DNA of 64,000 bases, from NCBI GenBank assembly GCA_036320915.1, contig JAXBDG010000009.1, positions 186,001 to 250,000 on the forward strand, given 5' to 3'. Origin of the DNA: Linnemannia elongata (taxonomy: Eukaryota > Mortierellomycota > Mortierellomycetes > Mortierellales > Mortierellaceae). Position 1 is the stretch's first letter; each line of letters begins with the position of its first letter. Shown piece by piece: positions 1,262 to 54,041 of the stretch. The position numbers and the translations under genes are program-made. The notes below the pieces were generated by a model. The model was given only the letters and a program-made list of their open reading frames with translations. It was not told the origin of the DNA and did not search any database.

Positions 1262-2349
1262 TTAAGGCATAGACAGTCGCTGAAGCACGATACCTTCAAT
1301 GGTCAGAGTCAAGTTAACGCTGCATGCTTCAGACAGTGCCTGAACTACATTGTCTCCGAGCGAGTCGAGTCCCATATGTAAAATGGTGAGAGTTGAGTTG
1401 GACTTGAGTGCTTCTGACAGCGCTACAGCTCCCTTCTCCCTGATCGAGTTGTTCTGCAAATCCAAAGCGGTGAGAGTCGAGTTGGTCTTGAGTGATTCAG
1501 AAAGGGCTATAGCTCCGTTGTCCCCGATCGAGGTCCTGTCCAAGTCTAAAGTGTCAGGGTAGAGTTGGTCTTGAGTGCCTCACACAGCGCTACAGCTCCG
1601 TTCTCCCCGATCGAGTTGGCGTACAAGCTCAAAGTGGTGAGAGTCGAGTTGGTCTTGAGTGCCTCTGACAGCGCCACAGCTCCGTTCTCCCCGATCGAGT
1701 TGCCGTTCACGTTCAAAGTGGTGAGAGTCGAGTTGGTCTTGAGCGACTCACACAGTGCCACAACTCCGTAGTTTCCGATCCAGTTCTCTGTTAAATCCAA
1801 AGTGGTGAGAGTTGAGTTGGCCCTGAGTGCTTCAGACAGCGCTACAGCTCCGTTCTCCCTGATCGAGTTGTTGTGCAAGTCCAAAGTGGTCAGGGTTGAG
1901 TTGGCCCTGAGTGTCTTAGACAGCGCTAAAGCTCCGTTCTCCCCGATCGAGTTGTATCCCATATTCAAAGTGGTGAGAGTCGCGTTGATCTTAAGTGCTT
2001 CTGACAGCGCCACAGCTCCGTTCTCCCCGATCGAGTTGCCCGTTGAGTCGAAGGTGGTGAGATTCGAGTTGGCAATAATGCTAGAAACTACTTTGTACTC
2101 TCCAGATGTCCATAGTTTTCCATCGGTAGCTTTCTTAATCGTCAGGTGTTTTATAAGACGCTTGTTTTTCTCGACAGATCCCAGGCTAAGGTAATGCTTC
2201 GATAACACGACATAGTTGTAGAGTGGCGGTGTAAATGAGACGTTCCAATCCTGACTCACACGCGCACAGGACGCGAGGTCTCTAAGGCCAAGACTGCTGG
2301 CAATTCTGGACCGAATCTCGTGTAGATCGAGGGGATGCGTCTGGAACAT
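1262..2349 (-). pseudogene. F-box/LRR family copy A1, frameshifted
   Basis: This is a member of the window's F-box + LRR family. It starts with MFQTHPLDLHEIRSR and the F-box-like head, then carries five complete 28-residue repeats. In the sixth repeat the frame breaks at about 1551-1554, where one G is missing from a track that other copies read as gtggtcagg. The reading continues in the next frame for about two more repeats and the conserved cap ending QRLSMP. Without the missing base it would encode roughly 360 residues. The protein as written stops 267 residues after the start. It may be a pseudogene, a truncated but expressed allele, or an assembly error, since the site lies in near-identical repeats. 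The 3' flank (about 1150-1261) matches that of the other copies but is cut short. Confidence 0.8.
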
Positions 2350-3438
2350 ATTGGTCTTGCAAGAGGAGGAATATGAATTGTGTGACAGGGTTGATGGTGT
2401 GATGGATGACAGGAAGGGCGGAAGGGGATGAGGAGGAATGGAGTAGGATTAGTGGAAGAATGGAATAAGATGAGAGAAAGAATGGGATGGGATTACAAAA
2501 AATACTGTTAGGACAGACATACCGTTCGCGCCACAAAACTTTATTTCTCTCTGCCCTCACCCTGCGGCGCTCCATTTTTTTTCTCTGCTGTTCTAAATCT
2601 GCTCCGCTTCCGTATTTTACACCACAGTATGCTCGTCGTTGCGCGTGTGAGCCCAACTAGATAATAACCACGGCTTCGCTCCGCAGAGGGAGATGAAAAG
2701 AACAAATCAGGGAAGCATTGGAGGTGTCCATTCATCCAAGACAGTACTTGGATAGCCGAGGAAGGATTCTGTATTGCCACAATCTGTGTGGCTGGTGCAA
2801 CTTGTATTAGTGGCTGTAAACCAACATACCACCTTTGCAAAGGAAGCCAATTGACCCGCCAAAGGATTTTTTCTACATAGGCAACTTTGTCTTTTCTTTC
2901 CTTTCCATCCCTTCGCAGGCACCACACACAAACTGTTAGCCCTAAACTTTGCTTTGACCTATATATTCCTGTGCTGCTCGCCTGCGTTCTGTTGGCGCAA
3001 TTGAAGTTGAGTAATTTTTTTTGGACTTCTTTTATTTTGGTTCCGTAATCCTGCAAATACCCGGAGAGACAATTTGGCTATGGCGATTCGTTCGAAATAT
3101 TTGAAAGTAAAGAGACAGGATATGGAGAATACAAGTAGATGTTTTGGATCATTGGAATTAACTTGAGATAAATATTTCCTCTTGATTTCTAGGAGATCCA
3201 CTAGATTCCTATAGCTAGGCCATAGGAGGCTCTCTTGATACAGTATATATGATTTAGATCTGCATCATGACGACAGGGGTTTTAATATCAAGTTATCAAT
3301 CTACTACAAACTCATTGAGCTAGGGAATGCAATAAGTAAACAGAAGTGTGTGGATAGGAGTTGTGGAGAAAGAAGATAGAGGGGATCTCGACTGATATCG
3401 CTATAAAATATATATACTTTCTCTCTTCATTACTCTTA
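2350..3438. repeat. conserved intergenic block of the F-box/LRR duplicon (A1/A2)
   Basis: This stretch holds the 5' flank of copy A1 and the 3' flank of copy A2. It contains recurrent landmarks in order: a C/T-rich run directly before the start codon (written here on the minus strand), a stretch around atacggaggcggagcagat, a segment reading as S-C-T-S-H-x-D-C in one frame, a track around gtgtggtgcctgggaagg, and a 3' stretch with tatatactttctctcttc. The same order recurs in clusters B, C and D, so the block duplicates together with the gene. It presumably includes promoter and 3' UTR. Confidence 0.75.
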
Positions 3439-4779
3439 TTAAGGCAGAGACAGTCGCTGAAGTACGATGCCTTTGATGATCACAGTCAAGTTAACGCTGC
3501 ATGCCTCAGACAGTGCTCGGGCTCCATTGTTTCCGATCGAGTTCCTCTGTAAGTCCAAGGTGGTCAGGGTCGAATTGGTCTTGAGTGTCTCTGACAGCGC
3601 AACAGCTCCGTTGTCCCCGATCGAGTTGTAGTTCAAGTTCAAAGTGGTGAGAGTTGAGTTGGTCTTGAGTGCCTCGGACAGTGCCTCAGCTCCGTTGTCC
3701 CCGATCGAGTTGTCGTACAAGCTCAAAGTAGTGAGAGTCGAGTTGGTCTTGAGCGCCTCCGACAGCGCTACAGCCCCGTTGATTCCGATCCAGTTGTCCT
3801 GTAAGTCCAAAGTGGTCAGAGTCGAGTTGGTCTTGAGTGCCTCACTCAGCGCTACAGCTCCGTTCTCCCTGATCGAGTTCCTGCTCAAGACCAAAGTGGT
3901 GAGAGTCGAATTGGTCTGGAGTGCCTCTGACAGCGCCACAGCTCCGTTCTCCCTGATCGAGTTCCTGCTCAAGTCCAAAGTGGTGAGAGTCGAATTGGTC
4001 TGGAGTGCCTCCGACAGTGCCTCAGCTCCGTTGTCCCAGATCGAGTTGTCGTGCAAGTTCAAAGTGCTGAGAGTCGAATTGGTCTTGAGTGACTCAGACA
4101 GCGCTACAGCTCCGTTCTCCCCGATCGAGTTGCAGATCAAGTTCAAAGTCGTCAGGGTCGAATTGGTCCTGAGTGCCTCTGACAGGGCTATAGCTCCGTT
4201 CTCCCTGATCGAGTTCAGGGACAAGTACAAAGTGGTGAGAGTCGAGTTGGTCTTGAGTGCCTCAGACACTGCCACAGCTCCGTTCTCCCCAATCGAGCTG
4301 CCTCCAATATTTAAAGTGGTGAGAGTCGAGTTTGTCTTGAGTACTTCAGACAGCGCCACGGCTCCGTTCTCCCTGATCGAGTTGTCGTACAAGTTCAAAG
4401 TGGTGAGAGTCGCGTTTGTCATGAGTGCCTCTGACAGCGCCATAGCTCCGTTATCTCCGATCCAGTTGCCCGTTAAGTTGAAGGTGGTGAGAGTCGAGTT
4501 GGCCATTATGCTAGAAATTACTTTGAGTTCTGCAGATGTCCATAGTTCTCCATAGGTAGCCCTCTTAATCGTCAGGTGTTTTATAAGATGCTTGTTTCTC
4601 TCGGCAGATCCCAAGCTGAGGTAATGTTTCGATAACACGACGGAGTTGTAGAGTGGCGGTGTAAATGAGTCGTTCCAATCTTGACTCACACGCGCACAGG
4701 AAGCGAGGTCTTTAAGACCAAGACTGCTGGCAATTCTGGACCGAATCTCGTGTAGATCGAGGGGATGTATCTGGAACAT
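3439..4779 (-). CDS. F-box/LRR protein, copy A2 (11 repeats)
   Basis: The predicted protein has 446 residues and a single exon. Residues 1-50 resemble an F-box (LHEIRSRIASSLGLKDLASC, then ARVSQDWNDSFTPPLYNSV), the motif that binds Skp1 in SCF ubiquitin ligases. Residues of about 90-415 are eleven 28-residue LRRs of ribonuclease-inhibitor type. Each has the framework GAVALSEALKTNSTLTTL, then (D/N)L, two variable residues, NS, and I plus two variable residues. A partial twelfth repeat leads into the constant cap SVNLTVIIKGIVLQRLSLP. The start was chosen because the Met of MFQ.HP is the only one shared by all copies. The variable pairs here include YD, GG, SL, IC, HD, SR, QD, NY and QR. The likely role is target recognition for ubiquitylation or another scaffold function; the target is unknown. 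A long antisense frame is a by-product of the repeat. Confidence 0.85.
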   Translation of the reverse strand: MFQIHPLDLHEIRSRIASSLGLKDLASCARVSQDWNDSFTPPLYNSVVLSKHYLSLGSAERNKHLIKHLTIKRATYGELWTSAELKVISSIMANSTLTTFNLTGNWIGDNGAMALSEALMTNATLTTLNLYDNSIRENGAVALSEVLKTNSTLTTLNIGGSSIGENGAVAVSEALKTNSTLTTLYLSLNSIRENGAIALSEALRTNSTLTTLNLICNSIGENGAVALSESLKTNSTLSTLNLHDNSIWDNGAEALSEALQTNSTLTTLDLSRNSIRENGAVALSEALQTNSTLTTLVLSRNSIRENGAVALSEALKTNSTLTTLDLQDNWIGINGAVALSEALKTNSTLTTLSLYDNSIGDNGAEALSEALKTNSTLTTLNLNYNSIGDNGAVALSETLKTNSTLTTLDLQRNSIGNNGARALSEACSVNLTVIIKGIVLQRLSLP

Positions 4780-5869: not shown

Positions 5870-6943
5870 TCACTGAACTTCGATGCCTCTAATGGTCACA
5901 GTCAAGTTGACGCTGCATGCCTCAGACAGTGCCTGAGGTCCATTCTTTCCGATCGAGTTGCGTCCTATATTTAAAGTGGTGAGAGTTGAGTTGGACTTGA
6001 GTGCCTCAGACAGTGCAACAGCTCCGTTCTCCCCGATCGAGTTGTAGTCCAAGCTCAAAGTGATGAGAGTCGAGTTGGTCTTGAGTGCCTCTGACAGCGC
6101 CACAGCTCCATTGTCTCTGAAGGAGTTGCCGTTCAATTTCAAAGTGGTGAGAGTCGAATTGGTCTTGAGTGCCTCTGACAGCGCCACAGCTCCGTTGTCC
6201 CAGATCCTGTTGTAGCTCAAGTCCAAAGTGGTGAGAGTTGAGTTGGTCTTGAGTGCCTCAGAAAGCGCTACAGCTCCGTTCGCTCTGATCGAGTTACTAT
6301 TCAAATCCAAAGAAGTGAGAGTTGAGTTGGACTTGAGTGCCTCGGACAGGGCAACAGCTCCATAGATTTCGATCGAGTTCCACCACAAGTTCAAAGTGGT
6401 GAGAGTCGAGTTGGCCTTGAGTGCCTCAGAGAGCGCCATAGCTTCGTTCTCCCTGATCGAGTTGCGCCACAAGTTCAAAGTGGTGAGAGTCGAGTTTGTC
6501 TTGAGTGCCTCAGACAGTGCCACAGCTCCGTTGATTCTGATCGAGTTGCCTCCCATATTCAAAGTAGTCAGAGTCGAGTTGGTCTTGAGGGCCGTAGACA
6601 GCGCCACAGCTCCGTTCTCTCCGATCCAGTTGTCCGTTAAGTCGAAGGTGGTGAGAGTCGAGTCGGCCATAACGCTAGAAATTACTTTGTGTTCTGCAGA
6701 TGTCCATAGTTCTCCATAGGTAGCCCTCTTAATTGTCAGATGTTTTATAAGATGCTTGTTTCTCTCGATAGATCCCATGCTGAGGTCATGTTTCGACAAC
6801 ACGACAGAGTTGTAGAGTGGCGGTGTAAATGAGTCGTTCCAATCCTGACTCACACGCGCACAGGACGCGAGGTCTCTAAGGCCAAGACTGCTGGCAATTC
6901 TGGACCGAATCTCGTGTAGATCAAGGGGATGTGTTTGGAACAT
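5870..6943 (-). CDS. F-box/LRR protein, copy A3 (8 repeats)
   Basis: The protein has 357 residues from the shared MFQTHP start, with the F-box-like head and eight complete 28-residue repeats. An in-frame Met ten codons upstream (MSYSPSCKTR) exists but is not shared by all copies. Repeats 3 and 4 deviate from the family framework (IRENEAMAL, IEIYGAVAL), and the seventh starts with Phe instead of Ile. The C-terminal cap stops early at RGIEVQ: the codon that is CGA in sister copies is TGA here, so the last few residues (RLS.P) are missing. This is the shortest of the intact copies. Its upstream block is truncated at about 7165, so the promoter may differ from that of its neighbours. Confidence 0.8.
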   Translation of the reverse strand: MFQTHPLDLHEIRSRIASSLGLRDLASCARVSQDWNDSFTPPLYNSVVLSKHDLSMGSIERNKHLIKHLTIKRATYGELWTSAEHKVISSVMADSTLTTFDLTDNWIGENGAVALSTALKTNSTLTTLNMGGNSIRINGAVALSEALKTNSTLTTLNLWRNSIRENEAMALSEALKANSTLTTLNLWWNSIEIYGAVALSEALKSNSTLTSLDLNSNSIRANGAVALSEALKTNSTLTTLDLSYNRIWDNGAVALSEALKTNSTLTTLKLNGNSFRDNGAVALSEALKTNSTLITLSLDYNSIGENGAVALSEALKSNSTLTTLNIGRNSIGKNGPQALSEACSVNLTVTIRGIEVQ

Positions 6944-7165
6944 CCTAGTCTTACAAGATGGGGAATATGACATGTGTGACAGGGTTGATGGTGTGAGGGA
7001 TGACAGGAAGGGTAGAATGGGATGAGGAGGAATGGACTAGGATGAGTGGAAGAATGGAATAGGATGAGAGAAAGAATGGGATGGGATTACAAAAAATAGT
7101 GTTAGGACAGATATACCGTTCGCGCCACAAAACTTTATTTCTCTTTGCCTCCATTTTATTTTTTT
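6944..7165. repeat. truncated 5' flank of duplicon, end of cluster A
   Basis: Only the gene-proximal part of the shared upstream block is present: the C/T-rich tract as read on the minus strand, then caaaactttatttctctttgcc. Similarity ends around 7165, where unrelated sequence begins. This marks the outer edge of cluster A. Confidence 0.65.
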
Positions 7166-9579: not shown

Positions 9580-9609
9580 TAAAATTTTTTGGCAAGTTAA
9601 CATCCTTAA

Positions 9610-15557: not shown

Positions 15558-15755
15558 AGTGTTTTGGTGTGTGGCAAGTGTGCGAATTTTTATGAGTGAG
15601 AGAGTTGAAGAAAAAAGAAAGGCTACTCCTCGTTTTTTTTTCTTTTCCCTTTTTTGTTCTTTCTCTGGGCTGGAGGGGAAATGAAATAGACCAATCAGAT
15701 TTCAAACAATACTTTCCCCTTTCCCCTCTCCCCACTTGAACTAGGCTCTGGTTGT

Positions 15756-16457: not shown

Positions 16458-17882
16458 TTAAGGAATAGACAGTCGCTGAAGTACAATGCCTTCAATGTTC
16501 ACAGTCAAGTTAACGCTGCATGCCTCAAACAGTGCCTGAGCACCCTTGTCCCCGATCGAGTTGTATCCCATATATAAAGTGGTGAGAGTCGAGTTGGACT
16601 TGAGTGCCTCAGAGAGTGCAACAGCTCCGTTATCCCCGATCGAGTTGTGGTTCAAGTTCAATGTGATCAGGGTCAAGTTGATCTTGAGTGCATCAGAGAG
16701 CGCCACAGCTCCGTTCTCTCCGATCGAGTTGTTGTACAAGTTCAAAGTGGTGAGAGTCGAGTTGGTCTTGAGTGCTTCTGACAGTGCCTCAGCTCCGTTG
16801 TCCCCGATCAAGTTGTAGTCCAAGGCCAAAGTGGTCAGGGTCGGGTTGGTCTTGAGTGCCTCTGCCAGGGCTACAGCTCCGTTCTCCGTGATCGAGATGT
16901 CCCACAAGCTCAAAGTGGTGAGAGTCGAGTTGGTCTTGAGTGCTTTAGACAGTGCAACAGCTCCATAGTCTCCGATCGAGTTGTGTCCCATATTTAAAGT
17001 GGTGAGAGTCGAGTTGGTCTTGAATGCCTCAGACAGCGCTACAGCTCCGTTTTCCCCGATCGAGTTGGCGTACAAGTTCAAAGTGGTGAGAGTCGAGTTG
17101 GTCTTGAGTGCCTCAGACAGCGCTACAGCTCCGTTGATTCCGATCGAGTTGCTCTGTAAGTTCAAGGTGGTCAGGGTCGAGTTGGTCTTGAGTGCCGTAG
17201 ACAGCGCCACGGCTCCGTTCTCCCTAATCGAGTTTCTGCTTAATTCCAAAGTGGTGAGAGTCGAGTTGGTCTTGAATGCCTCAGACAGGGCCACAGCTCC
17301 GTTCTCTCCGATCGAGTTGTACCGCAAGTTCAAAGTGGTGAGAGTCGAGTTGGTCTTGAGTGCCTCCGACAGTGCCTCAGCTCCGTTGGCTCCGATCGAG
17401 TTGGAGTTAAAGTTCAAAGTGGTAAGAGTCGAGTTGGTGTTGAGTGACTCAGACAGGGCTACAACTCCGTTGTCCCCGATCGAGTTGTCGTACAAGTCCA
17501 AAGTAGTGACAGTCGAGTTGGTCTTGAGTGCTTCTGCCACGGCTACAGCTCCGTTCTCCCCGATCGAGTTGTTGAGCAAGCGCAAAGTGGAGAGAGTCGA
17601 GTTGGCCATAATGCTAGAAATTACTTTGTGTCCTGCAGATGTCCATGGCTCTCCTTCGGTAGTTCTCTTAATCGTCAGGTGTTTAATAAGATGCTTGTTT
17701 CTCTCGACACATTCCATGCTGAGGTCATGTTCCGACAACACGACAGAGTTGTAGAGTGGCGGTGTAAATGAGTCGTTCCAATCCTGACTCACACGCGCAC
17801 AGGACGCGAGGTCTTTACGGCCAAGACTGCTGGCAATTCTGGACCGAATCTCGTGTAGATTGAGGGGATGTGTCTGAAGCAT
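16458..17882 (-). CDS. F-box/LRR protein, copy B1 (12 repeats)
   Basis: The protein has 474 residues from MLQTHPLNLHEIRSR; it is the only copy with Leu at position 2 and Asn at position 8. An open frame extends 82 codons upstream, but only through C/T-rich flank, so the shared Met was used. The F-box-like head is followed by twelve repeats and a cap ending QRLSIP. Repeat 1 has AVAEAL instead of ALSEAL. Repeats 6 to 9 (ending LYANS, MGHNS, LWDIS, then starting ITENGAVAL) closely match repeats 5 to 8 of the distant plus-strand copy at 30630, suggesting exchange between clusters. Confidence 0.85.
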   Translation of the reverse strand: MLQTHPLNLHEIRSRIASSLGRKDLASCARVSQDWNDSFTPPLYNSVVLSEHDLSMECVERNKHLIKHLTIKRTTEGEPWTSAGHKVISSIMANSTLSTLRLLNNSIGENGAVAVAEALKTNSTVTTLDLYDNSIGDNGVVALSESLNTNSTLTTLNFNSNSIGANGAEALSEALKTNSTLTTLNLRYNSIGENGAVALSEAFKTNSTLTTLELSRNSIRENGAVALSTALKTNSTLTTLNLQSNSIGINGAVALSEALKTNSTLTTLNLYANSIGENGAVALSEAFKTNSTLTTLNMGHNSIGDYGAVALSKALKTNSTLTTLSLWDISITENGAVALAEALKTNPTLTTLALDYNLIGDNGAEALSEALKTNSTLTTLNLYNNSIGENGAVALSDALKINLTLITLNLNHNSIGDNGAVALSEALKSNSTLTTLYMGYNSIGDKGAQALFEACSVNLTVNIEGIVLQRLSIP

Positions 17883-18995
17883 CTTGGTCTTGCAAGAGGA
17901 GGAATATGAAATGTGTGACAGGGTTGATGGTGTGATGGATGACAAGAAGAGTGGAATGTGAAGAGAGAAGGAATGGACTAGGATGAGAGGAAGAATGGGA
18001 TGGGATGAGAGAAAGAATGGGATGAGATGAGAGAAAGAATGGGATGGGTTTACCAGCAATAAAGTAGGGACGTGTAGTTCACAACATAAAACTTTATTTC
18101 TCTTTGCCCTCACTCTGCGGCGCTCCATTTTTTTCTCTGTTGTTCTAAATCTGCTCCGCCTCCGTATTTTACACTACAGTATGCTCGTCGCTGCGCATGT
18201 GAACCCAAATTGAAATTACCCACGGCTTTTCTACGCGGAGGGAGATGAAAAAAAACAAAACGAGGAAGCATTGGTGATATCCATTCGTCCAACACAGTAC
18301 TTAGATAGCCGAAGAAGGATTCTGTATTGCTACAATCTGCGTGACTGGTGCAACTTGTGTTAGTGGCTGTAGACTTACATACCACCTCTGCAAAGGATGC
18401 CAATTGATTCGTCAAAGGGTTTTTCTACATTAGCACCTTGGTCTTTTCTCTTTTTTCAATCCCTTCCCAGGCACCACACACAAACTGTAGGCCCTGAACT
18501 ATGCTTTGATCTATCAATGCTTGTGCTGCTCGCTTGCGTTCTCTAGGTCCAATTGAGGTAGAGTATTTTTTTAAGACTTCTTTTTGTTTTGGCTCTGTAA
18601 TCCTGCAGAATGCCCTGCGAGATAGTTTTGCTATGGTGATTGCTGAAACATTTGAGAGTTCAAAAAATATAAATAATACAAATTATACAAGTAAATGTGT
18701 AGGATCATTGGAATTAACTTGGGCTAAATAATTCCCCTTTGATTTCTATGAGATCCATTAGATTCCTATAGTTAGACTGTGAGAGGCTCTCAAGATACAG
18801 GATATATGATTTAGATCTGTGCCCTGACGACAGGGATTTTAATATTAAGATATAAATCTACTAAAGCTGATTGCGATAGAAAATGAAATGAATAGTCAAA
18901 AGTGTGTGGATAGGACTTGGTAAGAACGAAGGTAGAGGAGATCTTGATTGATATCGCTATAAAATAAATATACTTACTTTCTCTCTTCGTCACTC
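17883..18995. repeat. conserved intergenic block of the F-box/LRR duplicon (B1/B2)
   Basis: Full-length flank unit between copies B1 and B2. The C/T-rich segment has an extra internal duplication (the gaatgggatgagatgagag type track at about 17995-18045). The upstream small frame is open as 18110-18415 on the minus strand. Confidence 0.75.
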
Positions 18996-20603
18996 TTAAT
19001 ACGCAGACAGTCGCTGAAGTTCGATGCCCTCAATGGTTACAGTCAAATTAACGCTGCATGCCTCAAACAGCGCTTGAGCTCCATTGCTTTTGATCAAGTT
19101 GTGTCCCATATCCAAATTAGTGAGAGTTGAGTTGGCCTTGAGTGCCTCTGACAGCGCTACAGCTCCGTTGTCCCTGATCCTGTTGTCGTACAAGTTCAAA
19201 GTGGTGAGAGTCGAGTTGTTATTGAGTGCCTCGGACAGCGCCACAGCTCCGTTACCCCCGATCGAGTTGTACTTCAAGTTCAAAGTGCTCAGGGTCGAGT
19301 TGGTCTTGAGTGCCTCAGACAGCGCTACAGCTCCGTCGATTCCGATCGAGTTGTTCTGTAAGTCCAAAGTGGTCAGAGTCGAGTTGGTCTTGAGTGCTTC
19401 TGACAGCGCCACAGCTCCTTTCTCCCCGATCGAGTTGCCTCCCATATTTAAAGTGGTGAGAGTCGAGTTGGTCTTGAGTGCCTCTGACAGGGCCACAGCT
19501 CCATTCTCCCCGATCGAGTTGCCGTTTACGTTCAAGGTGGTGAGAGTCGAAGTGGTCTTGAGTGTCTCAGATAGCGCTACAGCTCCATTGATTCTGATCG
19601 AGTTGTAGTTCAGGTCCAAAATGGTCAGGGTAGAGTTGGTCTTGAGTGCCTCTGACAGGGCCACGGCTCCGTTCTCGATGATCGAGTTCCTGCTCACGTC
19701 CAAAGTGGTGAGAGTCGAATTGGTCTGGAGTGCCTCAGACAGCGCTACAGCTCCGTTAATTCCGATCGAGTTGCTCTGTAAGTTCAAGGTGGTCAGGGTG
19801 GAGTTGGTCTTGAGTGCCTCAGACAGCGCTACAGCTCCGTTGGCTCCGATCGAGTTGTCGTACAAGTTCAAAGTGGTGAGAGTCGAGTTGGTCTTGAGTG
19901 ACTTAGACAGCGCCACAGCTCCGTTTTCCCTGATCAAGTTGCTCTGCAAATCCAAGGTGGTCAGGGTCGAGTTGGTCATGAGTGCCGTAGACAGCGCCAC
20001 GGCTCCGTTCTCCCCGATCGAGTTGTACCGCAAGTTCAAAGTGGTGAGAGTCGAGTTGGTCTTGAGCGCCTCAGACAGCGCTACAGCTCCGTCCTCCCTG
20101 ATCGAGTTCTTGTACAGGTTTAAAGTGGAGAGAGTCGAGTTGGTCTTGAGAGCCTCCGACAGCGCCACGGCTCCGTTGATTCCGATCGAGTTCTCGTTCA
20201 AGTCCAAAGTGGTCAGGGTCGAGTTTGTCTTGAGTGCCTCCGACAGCGCCACAGCTTCGTCCTCTCCGAACGAGTTGTCCATTAAGCCGAAGGTGGTGAG
20301 AGTCGAGTTGGCCATAATACTAGAAACTACTTTGTATTCTGCAGATGTCCATAGTTTTCCATAGCCTAGTTTTCCATAGGGAGCCTTCGTAATCGTCAGG
20401 TGTTTAATAAGATGCTTGTTCCTCTCGACAGATCCCATGCTGAGGTAATGCTTCGACAGCACGACAGAGTTGTATAATGGCGGTGTAAATGAGTCGTTCC
20501 AATCCTGACTCACACGCGCACAGGACGCGAGGTCTTTACGGCCAAGACTGCTGGCAATTCTGGACCGAATCTCGTGTAGATCGAGGGGATGTGTCTGGAA
20601 CAT
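18996..20603 (-). CDS. F-box/LRR protein, copy B2 (14 repeats)
   Basis: The protein has 535 residues: F-box-like head, fourteen 28-residue repeats, and a cap ending QRLSAY instead of the usual QRLS.P. The head carries a four-residue duplication (YGKLGYGKLW) caused by a duplicated 12-bp segment at about 20356-20378. Repeat 1 starts with Phe and has an acidic variant (FGEDEAVAL). The other repeats keep the framework, with variable pairs including NE, YK, RY, QS, YD, SR, NY, NG, GG, QN and KY. Repeat 9 has an unusual TTST in place of TNST. The upstream flank is nearly identical to the 110 bp kept before the copy at 30630, pointing to a recent common origin. Confidence 0.85.
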   Translation of the reverse strand: MFQTHPLDLHEIRSRIASSLGRKDLASCARVSQDWNDSFTPPLYNSVVLSKHYLSMGSVERNKHLIKHLTITKAPYGKLGYGKLWTSAEYKVVSSIMANSTLTTFGLMDNSFGEDEAVALSEALKTNSTLTTLDLNENSIGINGAVALSEALKTNSTLSTLNLYKNSIREDGAVALSEALKTNSTLTTLNLRYNSIGENGAVALSTALMTNSTLTTLDLQSNLIRENGAVALSKSLKTNSTLTTLNLYDNSIGANGAVALSEALKTNSTLTTLNLQSNSIGINGAVALSEALQTNSTLTTLDVSRNSIIENGAVALSEALKTNSTLTILDLNYNSIRINGAVALSETLKTTSTLTTLNVNGNSIGENGAVALSEALKTNSTLTTLNMGGNSIGEKGAVALSEALKTNSTLTTLDLQNNSIGIDGAVALSEALKTNSTLSTLNLKYNSIGGNGAVALSEALNNNSTLTTLNLYDNRIRDNGAVALSEALKANSTLTNLDMGHNLIKSNGAQALFEACSVNLTVTIEGIELQRLSAY

Positions 20604-21224
20604 CTTGGTCTTGCAAGAGGAGGAATATGAGTTGTGTGACAGGGTTGACGGTGTGATGGTTGACAGGAAGGGTAGAATGGGATGAGGAGGAATGGACTAG
20701 GATGAGAGGAAGAATGGAATAGGATGAGAGAAAGAATGAGATGGGATTACAAAAAATAATATAGGGACATAGAGTTCACGCCACAAAACTTTATTTCTCT
20801 TTGCCCTGACTCTGCGGCGCTCCATTTTTTATTCTCTGCTATTCTAAATCTGCTCCGCCTCCGTATTTTACACTACAGTATGCTCGTCACTGCGCATGTG
20901 AACCCAACTAGATAATACCCACGGCTTCGCTCCGCGGAGGGAGATGAAAAAAACAAAACGAGGAAGCATTGGAGGTGCCCATTCGTCCAACACAGTACTT
21001 TGATAGCCGAAGAAGGATTCTGTATTGCCACAATCTGTGTGGTTGGTGCAACTTGTATTAGTGGCTGTAAACCAATATGCCATCTTCGCAAAGGATGCCA
21101 ATTGACCCGCCAAAGGGTTTTCTACATTAGTAACTTTGTCTTTTCACTCGTTTCCATCCCTTCTCAGGCACCACACGCAGACTGTAGGCCCTGAACTTTG
21201 CTTTGACCTCTCTAGAGCTGAGAG
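20604..21224. repeat. 5' flank of duplicon, outer edge of cluster B
   Basis: Shared upstream block of copy B2. It ends at the junction ctagagctgagagggactga (about 21212-21231), followed by tttgtctgattctcatta, which is the sequence that follows the orphan block near 16210-16235 after an extra insertion of about 80 bp there. The two edges therefore derive from one ancestral junction. Confidence 0.75.
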
Positions 21225-22313: not shown

Positions 22314-25300
22314 TTAGTGAAGGCGGGAGAGCTCCTCGATAAGCTTGGTTACCTCAACGACAGGGACCTCAATCGCCTCGCCTCCGTCAGCTCCCATCAT
22401 GACCTTGTTCACCTCGTCCTCTGTCAGATCCAAGAACAGCTCAATCAAATCTCCATCAACAAAGTTGGTCGACGGCAACGTCCTCTGATCGCTCCTGAAC
22501 TGTCTCCACCTATTTTTGTTGTTATGTTGGGTGGCAATGATGAACATTAGTATCTGAGCCAGATGGTAACACGGAGACCTAAGATAAACAATCGCAACGA
22601 CAATAAAAGAGGGCGTACTTGGAGTGGTCAAGGCCGCCGACGCCACGAATGACTTTAGACAGGTTGGTTTCAAGCCTGTGGAGGAGCTCGTACTTGTCCG
22701 CGGTAAGCGTTGCAATTACACCGATGGCTCCACTGACAGTCGCAAATAACAACTTGGGGATCGCAGGCGCATCACCCTCCTGGTTCGCCATCACAAGCGA
22801 TCCATGCTTGAACCGGTTGATCTGGTCGCCCAAGTGCCATCCTCCAGACCACTGCAACCTCTTGGCCTCATCTTCGCTCGTTGTCTCCGTGTTCTTGACA
22901 AGCGTAAACAGACTTGACGCATTGTCAGATGCAATAAACGTCTCGTCATCGATCGCTTCCAGCGCAGTCAACATATCCATTGACGAATCCCTGGCAATCT
23001 CAGTAATCTTCTTGTCCGTGTACCGGAGCAGCGTCATGCTCATAAGCATATCGCCCGCAACAATAAACTCGCCATGAACCGCAAGCGACAGAACCAGGAT
23101 GAATCCACGATGTGTGCATTCCAATGTCAGGTTGTTGTCGCTCGTTCCCTCCTCCGAGATCTTCCATGCATAGAGACAGATCCGATGGTTGACACCACAG
23201 AGAAGCTTGCCCTGGAATTCCTTGACCGCCATCACACCTCCCTGCACCTCCAACTCCGTCACCAACTTGAGTTTGCTGGTCTCTGACACTTCCAGAATCA
23301 AAATACGACCCTTAGTGGGGACACCTTCCGAAATCGTGTCTGCTGTTCCAACCGCAATGTAGCTCGTTGGATCGCCTGCGAACGTAACAGCCGTGATGCA
23401 CTGAGGTGCCTCATCCCTCTGTAGCTCGTACGAATCCAGCACTAAGCAAAAGCGCAAATATGAAATCCAGTTAGCATAAGGAATCGGCGTAACAACTACG
23501 AGATAAAGTCATCGAGGAAGAAAGAGTAGCGCTTACCATCAAAGGTCTGGTCATCGAAGAGACGGACGAACCCAATCTCTTCCTCATCACAGGCAACAAT
23601 GCGGGTAGTTCCAAAGGTCTCAGGCTCCTCGCATACAATCTGGGTAGTAAGGACTCCAAAGCACTTTCGTGACGACATGTACGCAATGCGTCTGGCACTC
23701 TCGTGGACAGGAACTGTGCGGACATGCAACTCCTGGAACTCGTCGATGCTTCCGATCCGAAGGACACTCTCCTCATCCGACCCAACAAGCGCCAGCGCAT
23801 TCGGGAAAGCCGTACAGTTGAATGAGGCAACCGTGGCGACCTGCTTGAGATTGACATTGGAGTAGAGGATCTTGCGGTTGGAACTGTAAATCACAGTAGG
23901 TCGGTCACTGCAAGCAAAGACATGGTCTGACTTTCCCGCAGTAGATGCAGTTGCGGGGGCCAAACCATCCTCGACCTGAGCTGCCGAAATCTGTCGAAGC
24001 ATGACAGGCTGCGTACCAAGCGAGATCTTTTTAGGAGATGGCAAGCTGCTGAGGGTTGCATCCAAAACAAACGTCAACAAATTTCCGTCGCCTATTTTGT
24101 GGGTTAATCATGCAGTTAGTTGTAAAGATAACTACTTGGTGGGATAATTCGAAGAGTCTAAAGTACTTACCGAGGCCGACCAAGAGGTAGGGTACGCCTT
24201 CAAATCTTGACAGGAGCAGCGAACGAGGAAGGATGTCTCCTGGCAGGTCGTGGGAAGCAAGGATCTCCATGGTGGGCAAGCGGACCAAAAGAACCTTAAT
24301 ATCTGTCCACAGTCCAACTGCGCACACCTGCGAGGCATGTCGATCCCCGCCGTCGATCGCGTTGACATCAATACAGGCTATTTCGTTCTCAAACGTAGTT
24401 TGGCTATTACGATAAGTAAAAGATAAAAGGCAGGCAGCGGCACAGTAAGTAAATTTGGTAGACAATCATTCACGCAGTAGCCTTTCAGGCCACACCTCAA
24501 GGACCAATTATAACCTTACCCGACTTTTTTGACGACTTCAGATCCAATGTCTAGGTAGACGAGGGTCTTACCGCCGACAGCCACCAGACACTGGGTGCCG
24601 TTCATGGATGCAATCGAGATCAACTCTCCTGCTGGGGGTTTCCACTCCGAGATCAATCCGGCTTGGATATGTTGAGGAGGCGCAATCAACCGAACTGAAT
24701 CCTCAGTCACTTGAATGAGGAGACCTGCCTGCGCATTTCCACAAAGCAACGTGGCTGTGTCGCTCAAGAATCCTTCAAGCTCCTCCTGAACCATCTCAGA
24801 GTCGGCTGTAACACGGACCACGCGCGTCGAGTTCAAAAAGCTCATCACAAGGGTGTCTTCCGTGCTAGAGTGGCGAAAAATGAAGAGTTGACCGAGAATG
24901 TCAGAAAATCCGCGAGTGACATATCCTTCCTCGTTCAATACCGCTTTCCCATATGCAATGTTCACTTACGTAGCATCCAAGTTCTCTTTCAGTGACCAAA
25001 GTCCCTTGATACCAGGGAGCTCAAGGACAGCCCTATCATTAATACCGACACCATTTCGGACAATTCTCAGCGACCCGTCCTTGAATGCTCCTGAACATGC
25101 CACAATTTGACCCTATTTAAACATAAAACAAAAACATAGTTAGAGGCGATATCAGATCCCCGGAGGATTCAAGCAACTCGCAATAGACAAAAGAATGAAA
25201 GAGTACCTGGCCTTGTCCCTCCAAATCGACGACCTCAAAATCGAGGACGGGTGCAATGTTGGTGAACGTCTCCATAATCTCCACATATTCGCCCTGCTCA

Positions 25301-30629: not shown

Positions 30630-32138
30630 ATGTTCCAGACACATCCCCTCGATCTACACGAGATTCGGTCCAGAATTGCCAGCAGTCTTGGCCTTAAAGA
30701 CCTCGCGTCCTGTGCGCGTGTGAGTCAAGATTGGAACGACTCATTTACACCGGCACTCTACAACTCTGTCGTGCTGTCGAAACATGAGCTCAGCATGGAA
30801 TCTATCGAGAGAAACAAGCATGTTATAAAACACCTTTTGATTAAAAGTGCTATCGATGGAGAACCATGGACATCTGCTGAATACAATGTAATTTCTAGCA
30901 TTGTGGCCAACTCGACTCTCACCACTTTGCGCTTGTTCAAGAACGCGATCGGGGAGAACGGAGTTGTAGCGCTATCTGAGGCACTCAAGACCAACTCGAC
31001 CCTGACTACCTTGAACTTGTACAGTAACTCGATCGGGGAGAACGGAGCTGTGGCGTTGTCAGAGGCACTCAAGACCAATTCGACTCTCACCACTTTGAAC
31101 TTGTACAACAACTCGATCAGAGCCAACGGAGCTGAGGCACTGTCGGAAGCACTCAAGACCAACTCGACCCTGACCACCTTGAACTTGAACAGGAACTGGA
31201 TCGGGGAGAACGGAGCTGTGGCGCTGTCTACGGCACTCAAGACCAACTCGACCCTGACCACTTTGGACTTAAAGAACAACTCGATCGGAATCAACGGAGC
31301 TGTGGCGCTGTCAGAAGCACTCAAGACCAACTCGACTCTCACCACCTTGAACTTGTACGCCAACTCGATCGGGGAAAACGGAGCTGTAGCCCTGTCTGAG
31401 GCATTCAAGACCAACTCGACTCTCACCACTTTAAATATGGGACACAACTCGATCGGAGACTATGGAGCTGTTGCACTGTCTAAAGCACTCAAGACCAACT
31501 CGACTCTCACCACTTTGAACTTGCCGCACATCTCGATCACGGAGAACGGAGCTGTAGCCCTGTCAGAGGCGCTCAAGACCAACTCGACCCTGACCACTTT
31601 GGACTTACAGAACAACTCGATCGGAATCAACGGAGCTGTAGCGCTGTCTGAGGCACTCAAGACCAACTCTACCCTGACTACTTTGGACTTGAACTACAAC
31701 TCGATCGGGAACAACGGAGCTATAGCCCTTTCTGAATCAATCAAGACCAACTCGACTCTCACCACTTTGGACTTGAGCGAGAACTCGATCGGAATCAACG
31801 GAGCCGTGGCGCTGTCGGAGGCACTCAAGACCAACTCGACTCTCACCACTTTGAACTTGGACTACAACTCGATCGGGGAGAACGGAGCGGTAGCGTTGTC
31901 TGAGGCACTCAAGACCAACTCGACTCTCACCACTTTGGACTTGACCAGCAACTTGATCGGAATCAATGGAGCTGTAGCGTTGTCTGAGGCTTTCAAGTCC
32001 AACTCAACTCTCATCACTTTAAATTTGAGATACAACTCGATCGGAAAGAATGGAGTTCAGGCACTGTCTGAGGCATGCAGCGTTAACTTGACTGTGATCA
32101 TTAAAGGCCTCGCAAATCAACGACTGTCTGAGCCTTAA
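30630..32138 (+). CDS. F-box/LRR protein, copy C1 (13 repeats)
   Basis: The protein has 502 residues starting at MFQTHPLDLHEIRSR with the F-box-like head (LKDLASCARVSQDWNDSF), thirteen repeats and a divergent cap (KGLANQRLSEP instead of KGIVLQRLS.P). The first loop differs from the family (RLFKNAIGENGVVAL). Repeats 5 to 8 are nearly the same as repeats 6 to 9 of copy B1 on the other strand 13 kb away. Repeat 10 has the variant ESIKTN. Most of the usual upstream block is missing, so expression may rely on a different promoter or be lost. Confidence 0.85.
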   Translation: MFQTHPLDLHEIRSRIASSLGLKDLASCARVSQDWNDSFTPALYNSVVLSKHELSMESIERNKHVIKHLLIKSAIDGEPWTSAEYNVISSIVANSTLTTLRLFKNAIGENGVVALSEALKTNSTLTTLNLYSNSIGENGAVALSEALKTNSTLTTLNLYNNSIRANGAEALSEALKTNSTLTTLNLNRNWIGENGAVALSTALKTNSTLTTLDLKNNSIGINGAVALSEALKTNSTLTTLNLYANSIGENGAVALSEAFKTNSTLTTLNMGHNSIGDYGAVALSKALKTNSTLTTLNLPHISITENGAVALSEALKTNSTLTTLDLQNNSIGINGAVALSEALKTNSTLTTLDLNYNSIGNNGAIALSESIKTNSTLTTLDLSENSIGINGAVALSEALKTNSTLTTLNLDYNSIGENGAVALSEALKTNSTLTTLDLTSNLIGINGAVALSEAFKSNSTLITLNLRYNSIGKNGVQALSEACSVNLTVIIKGLANQRLSEP

Positions 32139-37252: not shown

Positions 37253-37302
<50 letters not shown>

Positions 37303-48746: not shown

Positions 48747-49338
48747 TTTCTTTCTTTCTTTTTCTTTTTCTTGTTAGCTCAACGGTGTGTGGAAGGTTAA
48801 CTGCCTATTGTTTTTTTAATTTTTTCTTTTCTGCTGTGCGATTGTAAAAACAAGAAGGGTGAAGAATCCCTGTGTAAATAAAAATGTACCAATAGCACCT
48901 TTGGTTTTTTTTGTCAACCACTTCAATCTCGGAATTTTTTTTTTTTTTCTTTTGTTGAGGCGAGAACAAAAAAATATGAGACAAAATAGCTTATTAGCGC
49001 AGCACATGTGCCATCCATCTTCGCCCCCACCCCGCCTGCTCTTTTATTTGACTATTTTATATGGAAAAAATAGTCCACTACTTTTAACGCGTCCTTTTTG
49101 TATGTGCTCGGGGCTTCGGAGTAGGGAGCAAATGATACATTACGGTAAGCTTCGTCACGATATGATGGAGGGAGAAGGAGCAGACAGGTTTCTGGGAGTG
49201 AGCATGGAGGTCAGATACTGATGGCTTCGGGGGGGGGGGGTCAAAGAGGATTTTTCTTGCAGAGGTATTGGAATAGTGTCCACGCAGGGTAGCAAGATAT
49301 GGTGGTCAAGGACCAATGAGGCGTGTTTTGCTATATTA
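48747..49338. other. intergenic, no gene recognised
   Basis: Starts as the T-rich 3' end of the Ser-rich gene. A run of 12 G lies at 49229-49240, about 100 bp before the F-box/LRR cluster D. No coding frame is supported. Confidence 0.5.
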
Positions 49339-49806
49339 GTGTATAGCCACTAATACAAGTTGCACCAGCCATGCAGATTGTAGCAATACAGAATTCTTCC
49401 TCGGCTATCCAAGTACTGTGTTGGACGAATGGACACCTCCAATGCTTCCTCGTTTAGTTCTTTTCATTTCCCTCCGGGGAGCGAAGCCATGGGTATTATT
49501 CTAGTTGGGTTCACATGCGCAGCGACGAGCATACTGTAGCGTAAAATACGGAGGCGGAGCAGATTTAGAACAGCAGAGAGAAAAAAAAAATTAAAGAGAC
49601 GGACAGTGGGCAAAGAGAAATAAAGTTTCGAAGCGTCAACTAAATGTCCCAACATTACTTTTTGGTAATCCCATTCTTTCTCTCATCCCATTCCATTCTT
49701 GCTCTCATCCTAGTTCATTCCTCCTCATCCCCTTCCACTCTTCCTGTCATCCATCACAACATCAATCTTGTTACACATGTCATATTCCCCATCTTGTAAG
49801 ACTAGG
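49339..49806. repeat. 5' flank of duplicon, start of cluster D (truncated)
   Basis: The shared upstream block begins abruptly at gccactaatacaagttgcac and continues to the start codon of copy D1. The distal half found in other copies is missing. Confidence 0.75.
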
Positions 49807-51567
49807 ATGTTCCAGACACATCCTCTTGATCTACACGAGATTCGGTCCAGAATTGCCAGCAGTCTGCGCCTTAAAGACCTCGCGTCCTGTGCGCGTGTGA
49901 GTCAGGATTGGAACGCCTCATTTACACCGGCACTCTACAACTCTGTCGTGTTGTCGAAAAATGACCTCAGCTTGGGACCTGTCAAGAGAAACAAGCATCT
50001 TATAAAACACCTCACGATTGAGAAGCCTACCTATGGAAACCCATGGACGTCTGCAGAATACAAAGTAATTTCTAGCATTATGGCTAAGTCGACTCTCACC
50101 ACCTTCGACTTAACGGAAAACTTGATCGGGGAGAACGGAGCTGTGGCGCTGTCCGAGGCACTCAAGACCAACTCTACCCTGACCACTTTGAACTTGAACA
50201 GCAACTCGATCGGGGAGAAGGGAGCTGTGGCGCTGGCAGAGGCACTCCAGACCAACTCGACCCTGACCACTTTGGACTTGAACTGCAACACGATCGGAAC
50301 CAACGGAGCTGAGGCACTGTCGGAGGCACTCAAGACCAACTCGACTCTCACCACTTTGCATTTGTACGCCAACTCGATCGGGGACAGAGGAGCTGTAGCC
50401 CTGTCTAAGTCACTCAAGACCAACTCGACTCTCACCACTTTGAGCTTGTACGACAACTCGATCGGAGCCGACGGAGCTGAGGCACTGTCGGATGCACTCA
50501 AGACCAATTCGACTCTGACCACTTTGAATTTGTACGCCAACTCGATCGGAGAGAACGGAGCCGTAGCGCTATCTGAGGCACTCAAGACCAACTCGACTCT
50601 CACTACTTTGGACTTAACGGAAACCTCGATCGGAAACAGCGGAGTTGTGGCACTGTGTGAGCCACTCAAGACCAACTCGACCCTAACTACTTTGGACTTG
50701 TCCTACAACTCGATCGGGGACAATGGAGCTGAGGCACTGTCAGAGGCACTCAAGTCCAATTCGACTCTCACTACTTTGAGCTTGTACGAGAATTCGATCG
50801 GAGCCAACGGAGTTGAGGCACTGTCGGAGGCACTCAAGACCAACTCGACTCTCACCACTTTGAACTTGTACGCCAACTCGATCGGGGACAAAGGAGCTGT
50901 AGCCCTGTCAGAAGCACTCAAGACCAACTCGACCCTGAATATATTGAACTTGAACAGGAACTCGATCAGGGAGAACGGAGCTGCAGCGCTATCTGAGGCC
51001 CTCAAGACCAACTCGACTCTCACCACTTTGGATTTGCACGCCAACTGGATCGGAAACAACGGAGCTGTAGCGCTGTCAGAGGCACTCAAGACCAACTCGA
51101 TCCTAACCACTTTGAACTTGAGCAGTAACTTGATCAGGGAGAACGGAGCTGTAGCGCTATCTGAGGCACTCAACACCAACTCGACTCTCACCACTTTGGA
51201 CTTGCAGGACAACTCGATCGGAATCAACGGAGCTGTAGCTCTGTCAAAGGCACTCAACACCAATTCGACTCTCACCACTTTGGACTTACAGGACAACTCG
51301 ATCGGAATCGACGGAGCTGTAGCTCTGTCTAAGGCACTCAAGACCAACTCAACTCTCACCACTTTGAACTTGTACAAAAACTCGATCGCGGAGAACGGAG
51401 CTGTAGCGTTGTCTGAGGCACTCAAGTCTAACTCCACTCTCACCACTTTAAATTTGGGATACAACTCGATCGGAAAGAATGGAGCTCAGGCACTGTCTGA
51501 GGCATGCAGCATTAACTTGACTGTGACCATCAAAGGCATCGTACTTCAACGACTGTCTAAGCCTTAA
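49807..51567 (+). CDS. F-box/LRR protein, copy D1 (16 repeats)
   Basis: The protein has 586 residues from the shared MFQTHPLDLHEIRSR start and is the longest member here. The head has two unusual changes (SLRLKDLAS, QDWNASF). Sixteen complete repeats follow, then the cap SINLTVTIKGIVLQRLSKP. Repeats with an Ala/Glu variant (GAEALSEAL or GVEALSEAL) alternate with GAVAL types in repeats 3, 5, 8 and 9, and LYANS recurs at the ends of repeats 3, 5 and 9. The pattern SLY(D/E)NSIGA(D/N)G, NLYANSIG occurs twice (repeats 4-5 and 8-9), showing that blocks of more than one repeat have been duplicated internally. Repeat 7 has a Cys/Pro variant (VVALCEPLK). Confidence 0.85.
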   Translation: MFQTHPLDLHEIRSRIASSLRLKDLASCARVSQDWNASFTPALYNSVVLSKNDLSLGPVKRNKHLIKHLTIEKPTYGNPWTSAEYKVISSIMAKSTLTTFDLTENLIGENGAVALSEALKTNSTLTTLNLNSNSIGEKGAVALAEALQTNSTLTTLDLNCNTIGTNGAEALSEALKTNSTLTTLHLYANSIGDRGAVALSKSLKTNSTLTTLSLYDNSIGADGAEALSDALKTNSTLTTLNLYANSIGENGAVALSEALKTNSTLTTLDLTETSIGNSGVVALCEPLKTNSTLTTLDLSYNSIGDNGAEALSEALKSNSTLTTLSLYENSIGANGVEALSEALKTNSTLTTLNLYANSIGDKGAVALSEALKTNSTLNILNLNRNSIRENGAAALSEALKTNSTLTTLDLHANWIGNNGAVALSEALKTNSILTTLNLSSNLIRENGAVALSEALNTNSTLTTLDLQDNSIGINGAVALSKALNTNSTLTTLDLQDNSIGIDGAVALSKALKTNSTLTTLNLYKNSIAENGAVALSEALKSNSTLTTLNLGYNSIGKNGAQALSEACSINLTVTIKGIVLQRLSKP

Positions 51568-52616
51568 TAAGAGTAATGAAGAGAGAAAGTGTATATATAT
51601 TTTATAGCAATATCAGTCAAGATCCCCCCTACCTTCTTTCTCACCGACCTCTATCCACGCACTTTTGTCTATCCACGTCATTTCCTATCACAATGAGTTT
51701 TTAGTAGATTGATAACTTAATACTAAAATCCCTGTCGTCATGGCACGGATCTAAACCATATACCTTGTATCTAGCCTCCTATGGCCTAGCTACATGGATG
51801 TAATGGATATCCTAGAAATACAGCGGGAAATATTTACATAAAGTTAATTCCAATGATCCAAAACATTTACTTGCATTCTTCATATACCCTATCTTTCTGA
51901 TCTCTCAAATGTTTCGAGCGACTCACCAAAAAGCCGAACTATCTCAACGGGAATTTTGCAAGGTTACAGAGCTAAAATAAAAAGAAATCCGAAAAAAATT
52001 ACTACGCAAGCGACCAGCACAGGCATAGATAGGTCAAAGCAAGTGTGTGGTGCCTGGGAAGGGATGGAAAGAAGAGGAAAGACAAGGTTGCTAATGTAGA
52101 AAAAACCCTTTAGCGGGTCAGTTGGCATCCTTTGCAAAGGTGGTATGTAAGTTTACAGCAACTAATACAAGTTTCACCATTCACGCAGATTGAAGCAATA
52201 CAGAATCCTCCCTCGGCTATCCAAGCACTTTAATGGAAGAATAGACACCTCCAATGCTTCCTTGTTTTGTTCTTTTCATCTCCCTCCGCGAGTGAAACCG
52301 CGGGTATTATATGGTTGGGTTCACATGCGGTGCGACGAGCATACGGTAAAGCAAAACACGGAGGCGGAGCATCTTTTGAACTGTGGAAAAAAAAATGGAG
52401 TGCCGCAGAGTGGGGGCAAAGAGAAATAAAGTTTTGTGGCGTGAACTGTATGTCCCAACAGTATTTTTTGTGATCCCATCCCATTCTTTCTCTAATCCCA
52501 TTCCATCCTTCCTCTCATCCTAGTTCATTCCTCCTCATCCCCTTCCACCCTTTCTGTCATCCATCACACCATCAACCCTGTCACACATGCCATATTCTTC
52601 CTCTTGCAAGACGAAT
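51568..52616. repeat. conserved intergenic block of the F-box/LRR duplicon (D1/D2)
   Basis: Full flank unit in plus orientation between D1 and D2. The small upstream frame that is open in other copies is broken here by a stop (cacgcagattgaagcaatac) and other changes, which argues against a conserved peptide. Confidence 0.75.
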
Positions 52617-54041
52617 ATGTTCCAGACACATCCCCTCGAGCTACACGAGATTCGGTCCAGAATTGCCAGCAGTCTTGGCCTTAAAGACCTCGCTTCCTGT
52701 GCGCGTGTGAGTCAGGATTGGAACGACTCATTTACACCGGCACTCTACAACTCTGTCGTGCTGTCGAAACATGACCTCAGCATGGAATGTGTTGAGAGAA
52801 ACAAGCATATTATAAAACACCTCACGATTGAGAAGCCTACCTATGGAGAACTATGGACATCTGGAGAATTCAAAGTAATTTCTAGCATTATGGCCAACTC
52901 GACTCTCACCACTTTGGACTTGAGCAGAAACCCGATTAGGGAGAACGGAGCTGTGGCGCTGTCTACGGCACTCAAGACCAACTCTACCCTGACTACTTTG
53001 GACCTACAGAGCAACTCGATCGGAATCAACGGAGTTGTGGCGTTGTCGGAGGCACTCAAGACCAACTCGACTCTCACCACTTTGAACTTACACAATAACT
53101 TGAGCGCGGAGAACGGAGCTTTAGCGTTGTCTGAGGCACTCAAGACCAACTCGACCCTGACCATCTTGAACTTACAGAGCAACTGGATCGGGGACAACGG
53201 AGCTGTAGCGCTATCTGAGGCACTCAAGACCAACTCGACCCTGACCACCTTGAACTTACAGAGCAATTCGATCGGAATCAACGGAGCTGTAGCGCTGTCA
53301 GAGGCACTCAAGGCCAACTCGACTCTCACCACTCTGAACTTGCGGTACAACTTAATCGGGGAGAACGGAGCTGTGGCGCTGTTTGAGACACTCAAGACCA
53401 ACTCGACTCTCACCACTTTGGACCTGACCAACAACTTGATCAAAATCAATGGAGCTGTAGCGCTGTCAGAGGCACTCAAGACCAACTTGACCCTGACCAC
53501 CTTGGATTTGACGAGCAACTCGATCGGAATCAACGGAGCTGTAGAGCTGTCGGAGGCACTCAAGACCAACTCGACCCTGACCACTTTGGACTTGAACTAC
53601 AACTCGATCGGAATCAACGGAGCTGTAGCGCTGTCGGAGGCACTCGAGACCAACTCGACCCTTACTACTTTGGGCTTGAACTACAACTCGATCGGAATCA
53701 ACGGAGCTGTAGCGCTGTCGGAGGCACTCAAGACCAATTCGACCCTGACCACCTTGGACTTACAGAGCAACTCGATTGGAATCAACGGAGCTGTAGCGCT
53801 GTCTGAGGCACTTAAGACCAACTCGACTCTCACCACTTTGGACTTGAGCAGGAACTCGATCGGGGAGAGCGGAGCCGTGGCGCTATCTACGGCACTCAAG
53901 ACCAACTCAACTCTCACCACTTTGGATATGGGACGCAACTCGATCGGGGACAATGGAGCTCAAGCACTGTCTGAGGCATGCAGCGTTAACTTGACCGTCA
54001 CTATTAAAGGCGTCGTACTTCATCGACTGTCTACGCCTTAA
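52617..54041 (+). CDS. F-box/LRR protein, copy D2 (12 repeats)
   Basis: The protein has 474 residues: F-box-like head starting MFQTHPLELHEIRSR, twelve repeats, and the cap VNLTVTIKGVVLHRLSTP. In this copy the loop variant is mostly Ile (IGINGAVAL in repeats 2, 5 and 8 to 11, with IKINGAVAL in repeat 7). Consecutive repeats 8 to 11 are almost identical to one another, indicating very recent expansion or homogenisation. Repeat 3 starts SAENGALAL, unusual in lacking the Ile. An in-frame Met ten codons upstream (MPYSSSCKTN) is not shared by all copies and was not used. Confidence 0.85.
   Translation: MFQTHPLELHEIRSRIASSLGLKDLASCARVSQDWNDSFTPALYNSVVLSKHDLSMECVERNKHIIKHLTIEKPTYGELWTSGEFKVISSIMANSTLTTLDLSRNPIRENGAVALSTALKTNSTLTTLDLQSNSIGINGVVALSEALKTNSTLTTLNLHNNLSAENGALALSEALKTNSTLTILNLQSNWIGDNGAVALSEALKTNSTLTTLNLQSNSIGINGAVALSEALKANSTLTTLNLRYNLIGENGAVALFETLKTNSTLTTLDLTNNLIKINGAVALSEALKTNLTLTTLDLTSNSIGINGAVELSEALKTNSTLTTLDLNYNSIGINGAVALSEALETNSTLTTLGLNYNSIGINGAVALSEALKTNSTLTTLDLQSNSIGINGAVALSEALKTNSTLTTLDLSRNSIGESGAVALSTALKTNSTLTTLDMGRNSIGDNGAQALSEACSVNLTVTIKGVVLHRLSTP

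Follow-up and report, generated by a model that had tools for sequence, protein, structure and literature searches.

The question raised by this locus of Linnemannia elongata, a soil fungus of the Mortierellomycotina, is what is served by eight genes that each join an F-box-like head to an array of leucine-rich repeats (LRRs). The locus is a window of 64 kb, the whole stretch of DNA that was analyzed (G000:C32:186001-250000, within a 51.1 Mb genome of 32 contigs). An original prediction, made from the letters of the window, regarded the genes as a rapidly diversifying recognition repertoire tied to a ubiquitin-ligase adaptor. Our analysis found an excess of amino acid change at codons 3 and 4 of the repeat, beside its strand, and less firmly at codon 1, with purifying selection nearly everywhere else. 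The genes probably belong to a large, lineage-specific set of substrate adaptors of Skp1-Cullin-F-box (SCF) ubiquitin ligases, in which the LRR face is under diversifying selection to bind changing protein targets.

Eight heads were present where they had been predicted, five on the minus strand and three on the plus strand, and each was followed by an LRR_6 array with an E value of 9e-24 to 3e-76 in a Pfam scan, far above chance. Head and cap share a single open frame in seven of the eight genes. The genes are given below, with the cap unit included in each count of LRR units.

1262..2349, minus strand: gene 1, F-box-like head and LRR array, frame-broken (open frame 1546-2349)
3439..4779, minus strand: gene 2, head and 12 LRR units
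5870..6973, minus strand: gene 3, head and 9 LRR units
16458..18128, minus strand: gene 4, head (methionine at 17882) and 13 LRR units
18996..20603, minus strand: gene 5, head and 15 LRR units
30630..32138, plus strand: gene 6, head and 14 LRR units; its protein was used for the structure model
30630..30929, plus strand: gene 6, F-box-like head and linker (residues 1-100, F-box match 10-49)
30930..32105, plus strand: gene 6, ribonuclease inhibitor-type LRR array of 28-residue units
49768..51567, plus strand: gene 7, head (methionine at 49807) and 17 LRR units
52587..54041, plus strand: gene 8, head (methionine at 52617) and 13 LRR units

The array of gene 1 comprises five units and one cut by a frame break near 1546, past which three further units and the cap run on in another frame to 1262. 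A period of 252 bases, equal to three units, was also found in gene 8 by a tandem-repeat finder.

The repeat was characterized in a sample of 50 open frames (86 found, 57 of them distinct, 50 once contained ones were removed), from which 587 LRR units were drawn and in 41 of which a head was parsed. Arrays in this sample range from 0 to 19 units; some frames are fragments and some are clipped at locus ends (for example, L036 and L037). The 28-residue unit originally described is exact in its spacing in 522 of 538 neighboring unit pairs. The framework had been described as nearly invariant, and among the 98 units of the window the commonest residue accounts for 77-99% at each of positions 11 to 28. 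Entropy in these units is highest at positions 3 (3.41 bits) and 4 (3.34 bits), the two residues after (D/N)L at which variation had been predicted, followed by positions 9 (2.27 bits), 1 (1.94 bits) and 8 (1.39 bits). Thus, the second predicted pair, the two residues after I, resolves into one variable position (9) and one mild position (8). The units have the 28-residue length and beta-alpha fold of ribonuclease inhibitor (RI)-type LRRs, and the best structural matches of the modelled gene 6 protein are ribonuclease inhibitors, in line with the class first proposed.

Selection on the repeat was estimated by a counting approach rather than a likelihood site model. A minimum spanning tree joined the 587 units by 586 edges, which are not fully independent; the 334 edges with 1 to 10 differences were used and the rest dropped. 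Intervals were obtained by bootstrap over edges, and the bootstrap cuts retained only units that scored above 60, which removed 25 of the 587. The nonsynonymous rate, as a ratio to the pooled synonymous rate, peaks at codons 3 (2.55) and 4 (2.56), ahead of codons 1 (1.64) and 9 (1.28). Codon 6 follows at 1.18, which is not significant, and the remaining 23 codons lie between 0.11 and 0.96. For codons 3 and 4 together the bootstrap gives 2.58 (2.28-2.89) with pooled synonymous sites as the reference and 1.92 (1.57-2.41) with those of the two codons themselves; codon 1 reaches 1.66, less robustly. A ratio of 2.33 was found both for edges with at most six differences (1.69-3.09) and for disjoint unit pairs (1.83-2.86), and the excess occurs in V-type units (2.41; 174 units) as well as in Q-type units (2.79; 275 units). 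The estimates for codons 3 and 4 from local synonymous sites exceed 1 in all eight cuts, the interval spanning 1 in one cut and not being computable in two. The per-position check set beforehand therefore came out in support of diversification, with a ratio of nonsynonymous to synonymous change (dN/dS) of 0.43 at the 24 codons outside 1, 3, 4 and 9. Ratios above 1 are confined to the exposed binding face, where exposure is taken from the known fold and not from coordinates.

A second design used the same open frames as 18 disjoint frame pairs aligned unit by unit, a few of which (for example, the two frames of L054) may derive from a single broken gene. With pooled and local synonymous sites, respectively, codons 3 and 4 gave 2.56 and 1.97, codon 1 gave 1.66 and 1.40, and codon 9 gave 1.79 and 2.69; the other codons gave 0.47. 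The proposal of selection beside the strand thus stands for codons 3 and 4 and less firmly for codon 1, while codon 9 is in excess in some cuts only. Selection at codon 8 was rejected, as it showed no excess of amino acid change on the tree edges (0.84). A mutational hot spot was also rejected: the synonymous rate of codons 3 and 4 themselves exceeds the mean by a factor of only about 1.3.

The head carries the putative link to ubiquitin ligases. The F-box profile PF12937 was found at the N-terminus of all 13 heads in a diverse, hand-picked set (11 from among those parsed in the 41 open frames, together with P0123 and P0016). The first of them scored 24.9 bits against a Pfam cut-off of 24.3, and at least four family heads were above the cut-off in a separate scan. 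The F-box-like character first claimed for the head was thus recovered, though whole window proteins fall just under the cut-off. P0123 has the same head without a listed LRR match. Among the 41 parsed heads, dN/dS is 0.41 in columns 1-49 and 0.76 in columns 50-75; the F-box portion evolves under purifying selection. Helices are predicted, at low predicted local distance difference test (pLDDT) scores, at residues 9-19, 25-35 and 40-45 in the full model and at 9-20, 33-37 and 41-46 in a model of the head alone. The head profile had six weak matches in the PDB (E 0.08-1.9), five of them to F-box proteins (KDM2B twice, Cdc4, FBXW8 and FBXL2) and the sixth to Y3, listed as a tobacco mosaic virus resistance protein, which is not an F-box protein. 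Skp1 and cullin genes were found in the genome. Scanned against Pfam at E values up to 1, the eight window proteins showed no NACHT or NB-ARC domain.

The arrays had been called near-identical, a description that does not survive: units within a gene have a mean identity of 0.78 in nucleotides and 0.70 in amino acids (48 open frames), barely above that between genes. Median nucleotide identity is 0.774 within genes and 0.750 between them, and identity at 4-fold sites is 0.743 and 0.702. The most uniform single frames reach 0.85-0.87 in nucleotides (0.87 in L007) and up to 83% in protein. Units are thus not clearly more alike within a gene, and the framework is kept mainly by purifying selection and not by recent copying or homogenization. 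Given the same diverged synonymous sites, neither concerted evolution nor recent tandem duplication explains the constant framework, and both were rejected.

The closest frame pair is collinear across 16 units and differs by point changes. Identity between units was patchy at p < 0.05 in five of the 18 frame pairs, including the three closest, and two of them reached p 0.0005. With cheap gaps, insertions or deletions of units appeared in five of the 18 pairs; 40 listed frame pairs had aligned without unit gaps under a scoring that made gaps almost impossible. The reading of unit shuffling as minor was dropped after patchiness was rechecked in the 18 pairs. For example, units 7-8 of gene 4 match units 6-7 of gene 6 at a DNA identity of 0.99-1.00, and units of these two genes at 0.92-1.00 lie amid a background mostly of 0.77-0.88, as is expected of conversion or block exchange. 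Exchange of units between genes therefore occurs and lends the term modular partial support.

The family extends far beyond the window. A head search gave at least 150 matches genome-wide (150 of 279 candidates scored), 137 of them with E values of 4.5e-26 or below; the remaining 13 comprise partial, weak or decayed matches. The match is free of stops in 139 of the 150 and contains stops in 11, and contig C9 alone carries 30. LRR arrays behind the heads were confirmed only in the loci that were read. Five of the stop-bearing heads are decayed copies, on contigs C1, C13, C17, C18 and C20, with an equal score in four of the five and the same three kinds of stop in all five. Those of C17, C18 and C20 sit about 12 kb from a contig end, which suggests a subtelomeric repeated segment.

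Few of these genes are present as database proteins, and the family is therefore easy to overlook. One protein-database search, limited to proteins that share exact words with the query and are about 0.55 to 1.75 times as long, gave nine matches to the head at E values up to 1: five from L. elongata and the others from Dissophora ornata, Mortierella sp. AD032 and two further sources. Two of the nine come from the genome project of this assembly; the L. elongata F5H01DRAFT proteins P0005 and P0121 are 100% identical to open frames on contigs C11 (over 416 residues) and C6 (over 311 residues), respectively. Repeat masking during annotation may possibly lie behind this scarcity. The database models for P0005 and P0016 continue into unrelated sequence, which we take to be an expansin-like and a retroelement-like tail, respectively, so that such gene models may be unreliable. 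A full-length query, with 7995 candidates scored, found 1184 proteins, mostly through LRR matches; Mortierellaceae contribute many of the best 120 of the 1184, alongside animal and protist proteins such as NLRC3-like ones.

Under the favored reading, a set of SCF adaptors with a diversifying LRR face, the head would dock on Skp1-Cul1, the concave LRR face would bind protein targets and the bound targets would be ubiquitylated. Changing targets would then keep selection altering the binding face, and new specificities could arise as genes duplicate, binding residues undergo point changes and genes trade units. Of the original claim of a rapidly diversifying repertoire tied to a ubiquitin-ligase adaptor, diversification at codons 3 and 4 and the F-box-like head are borne out, and the adaptor role is a prediction. 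Several results weigh against this reading. None of the eight whole window proteins reaches the Pfam F-box cut-off of 24.3 bits (scores of 19.7-21.6), the head-alone model is poor (pLDDT 42) and 15 of 75 single head columns have ratios above 1, on few events. Codons 3 and 4 drop to 1.88 (1.09-2.80) in disjoint pairs with at most six differences, and to 1.29 (0.84-2.03) in Q-type disjoint pairs with local synonymous sites. Codon 1 is not significant in disjoint unit pairs (1.23, 0.90-1.69; 0.96, 0.41-1.70 with at most six differences) and stands at 1.42 (0.90-2.07) for tree edges with at most six differences, while codon 9 is not robust (0.75, 0.36-1.23 at the same limit). In addition, gene 1 is broken, and the 50 open frames are a part of the family in which some arrays are short or absent.

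Vertebrate RI inhibits nucleases, and a head that is an F-box-like remnant with another role, behind which the LRR array alone acts to bind or inhibit, for instance, nucleases, would account for the borderline F-box scores of the whole window proteins and for the ribonuclease inhibitors among the top structural matches. The conservation of the head (0.41), the F-box profile in all 13 chosen heads and the five F-box proteins among its six weak PDB matches speak against such a role, which is quite improbable. It is also unlikely, if somewhat less so, that the genes are adaptors for many endogenous proteins, each paralogue having diverged once to a stable self target by subfunctionalization with no arms race. 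The quantity measured is divergence between paralogues and all 16 units of the closest pair are collinear, both as this explanation expects. However, the head was found, in the one search, only in Mortierellaceae and two further sources, and no clear one-to-one orthologue appeared among the 50 open frames (the L. elongata BGZ88 protein P0105 reached at best 83% against one of them), a weak point.

A runaway gene family or genomic parasite, whose copies multiply without benefit and whose surface variation is relaxed drift, has been discussed for large F-box and nucleotide-binding oligomerization domain-like receptor (NLR) families in passages of PMC5041008. The many dispersed copies, the frame-broken gene 1 and the stops in 11 of 150 heads, including five decayed copies that each lie on a different contig, would suit it. 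However, drift predicts a ratio of about 1, against 2-2.6 at codons 3 and 4 and 0.43 at the 24 others, and drift is already disfavored by ratios that stay above 1 when local synonymous sites are used; 139 of the 150 head matches are free of stops. This explanation is very unlikely.

The surroundings of the genes include leader repeats and two further genes.

17947..18048, minus strand: 22-base pyrimidine-rich leader repeat, upstream of the gene 4 head
2430-2485, 6998-7087, 20680-20747, 49671-49752 and 52473-52536: other pyrimidine-rich 22-base leader repeats
22579-26337, minus strand: DDB1/CPSF_A-like multi-exon gene amid the family genes
27469-29292, plus strand: transposase upstream of gene 6 (607-residue open frame, DDE_Tnp_1_7 and zinc finger)

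Tandem 22-base repeats of this kind precede six of the eight heads and are possibly part of the 5' leader. The transposase is presumably of the piggyBac type. The DDB1/CPSF_A-like gene is another ubiquitin-ligase adaptor or an RNA-processing relative, and its place between family genes is probably due to chance.

F-box proteins with diversified binding regions are known elsewhere. The F-box families of Caenorhabditis use other substrate domains, and FBXL proteins are conserved single genes with LRRs of the cysteine-containing (CC) type, in comparison with the RI-type family described here; one of them, FBXL2, is seen with Skp1 in 6o60. Plant S-locus F-box paralogues, which are not LRR proteins, collectively bind variable non-self proteins; the likeness is that of a paralogue repertoire set against variable targets, and there is no evidence of a mating role for the L. 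elongata family. Passages of PMC8665587 describe rapidly evolving Caenorhabditis F-box families with a large expansion, an F-box under purifying selection and a C-terminal substrate region with dN/dS above 1, and propose an immune role there too. In contrast, the selected sites in L. elongata fall on defined RI-type LRR positions, in a fungus. The GALA/RipG proteins of Ralstonia also join an F-box to LRRs, but they are secreted bacterial proteins, with LRRs placed in the CC-LRR class by PMC2244805. The fungal NLRs of Podospora, as covered in passages of PMC4986451, share with this family a constant repeat framework, selected positions at a predicted interaction surface and repeat exchange. However, they are NACHT or NB-ARC proteins whose repeats under selection are WD40, ANK and TPR; no LRR was found in fungal NLRs, nor, in an older survey that the paper cites, any LRR receptor in fungi. 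Within a gene, the Podospora WD repeats show a protein similarity of about 85%, against a mean of 70% in L. elongata, and undergo concerted evolution. The parallel with fungal NLRs drawn originally therefore holds for the framework and the selected surface positions and is otherwise loose, because homogenization within L. elongata genes is slight. No description of an F-box joined to RI-type LRRs with selection at defined repeat positions in a fungus was found among the open-access papers listed.

The selection pattern means that the binding partners differ or keep changing, and it is silent on whether they are foreign. Candidate target proteins could come from endobacteria, from viruses, from competitors or, once hyphae have fused, from non-self nuclei. 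According to passages of PMC10507103, members of the Mortierellomycotina host endobacteria, and those of Mortierellaceae include Mollicutes-related ones, some with LRR genes thought to be of fungal origin; endobacteria are thus a reasonable first suspect, no more. More tentatively, the genes may form an intracellular immune or non-self repertoire of an early-diverging fungus, in which RI-type LRR arrays would lead to ubiquitin tagging of bound foreign proteins and not to cell death. At least 100 NACHT matches above the family cut-off were observed in the genome (100 of 204 candidates scored), many within open frames of more than 1200 residues, with a profile that is weakly specific (matches in 11 of 14 control genomes, above the cut-off in three); the NB-ARC profile had one match. 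This set is possibly a second large recognition repertoire. If the tentative reading is true, a single genome would carry both a ubiquitin-tagging LRR repertoire and, apart from it, a large NACHT set. An LRR recognition candidate is of note since fungal NLRs are reported without LRRs in the passages of PMC4986451. With at least 137 strong head matches, and selection seen in the part that was read, the family is a defined candidate for intracellular recognition in Mortierellomycotina.

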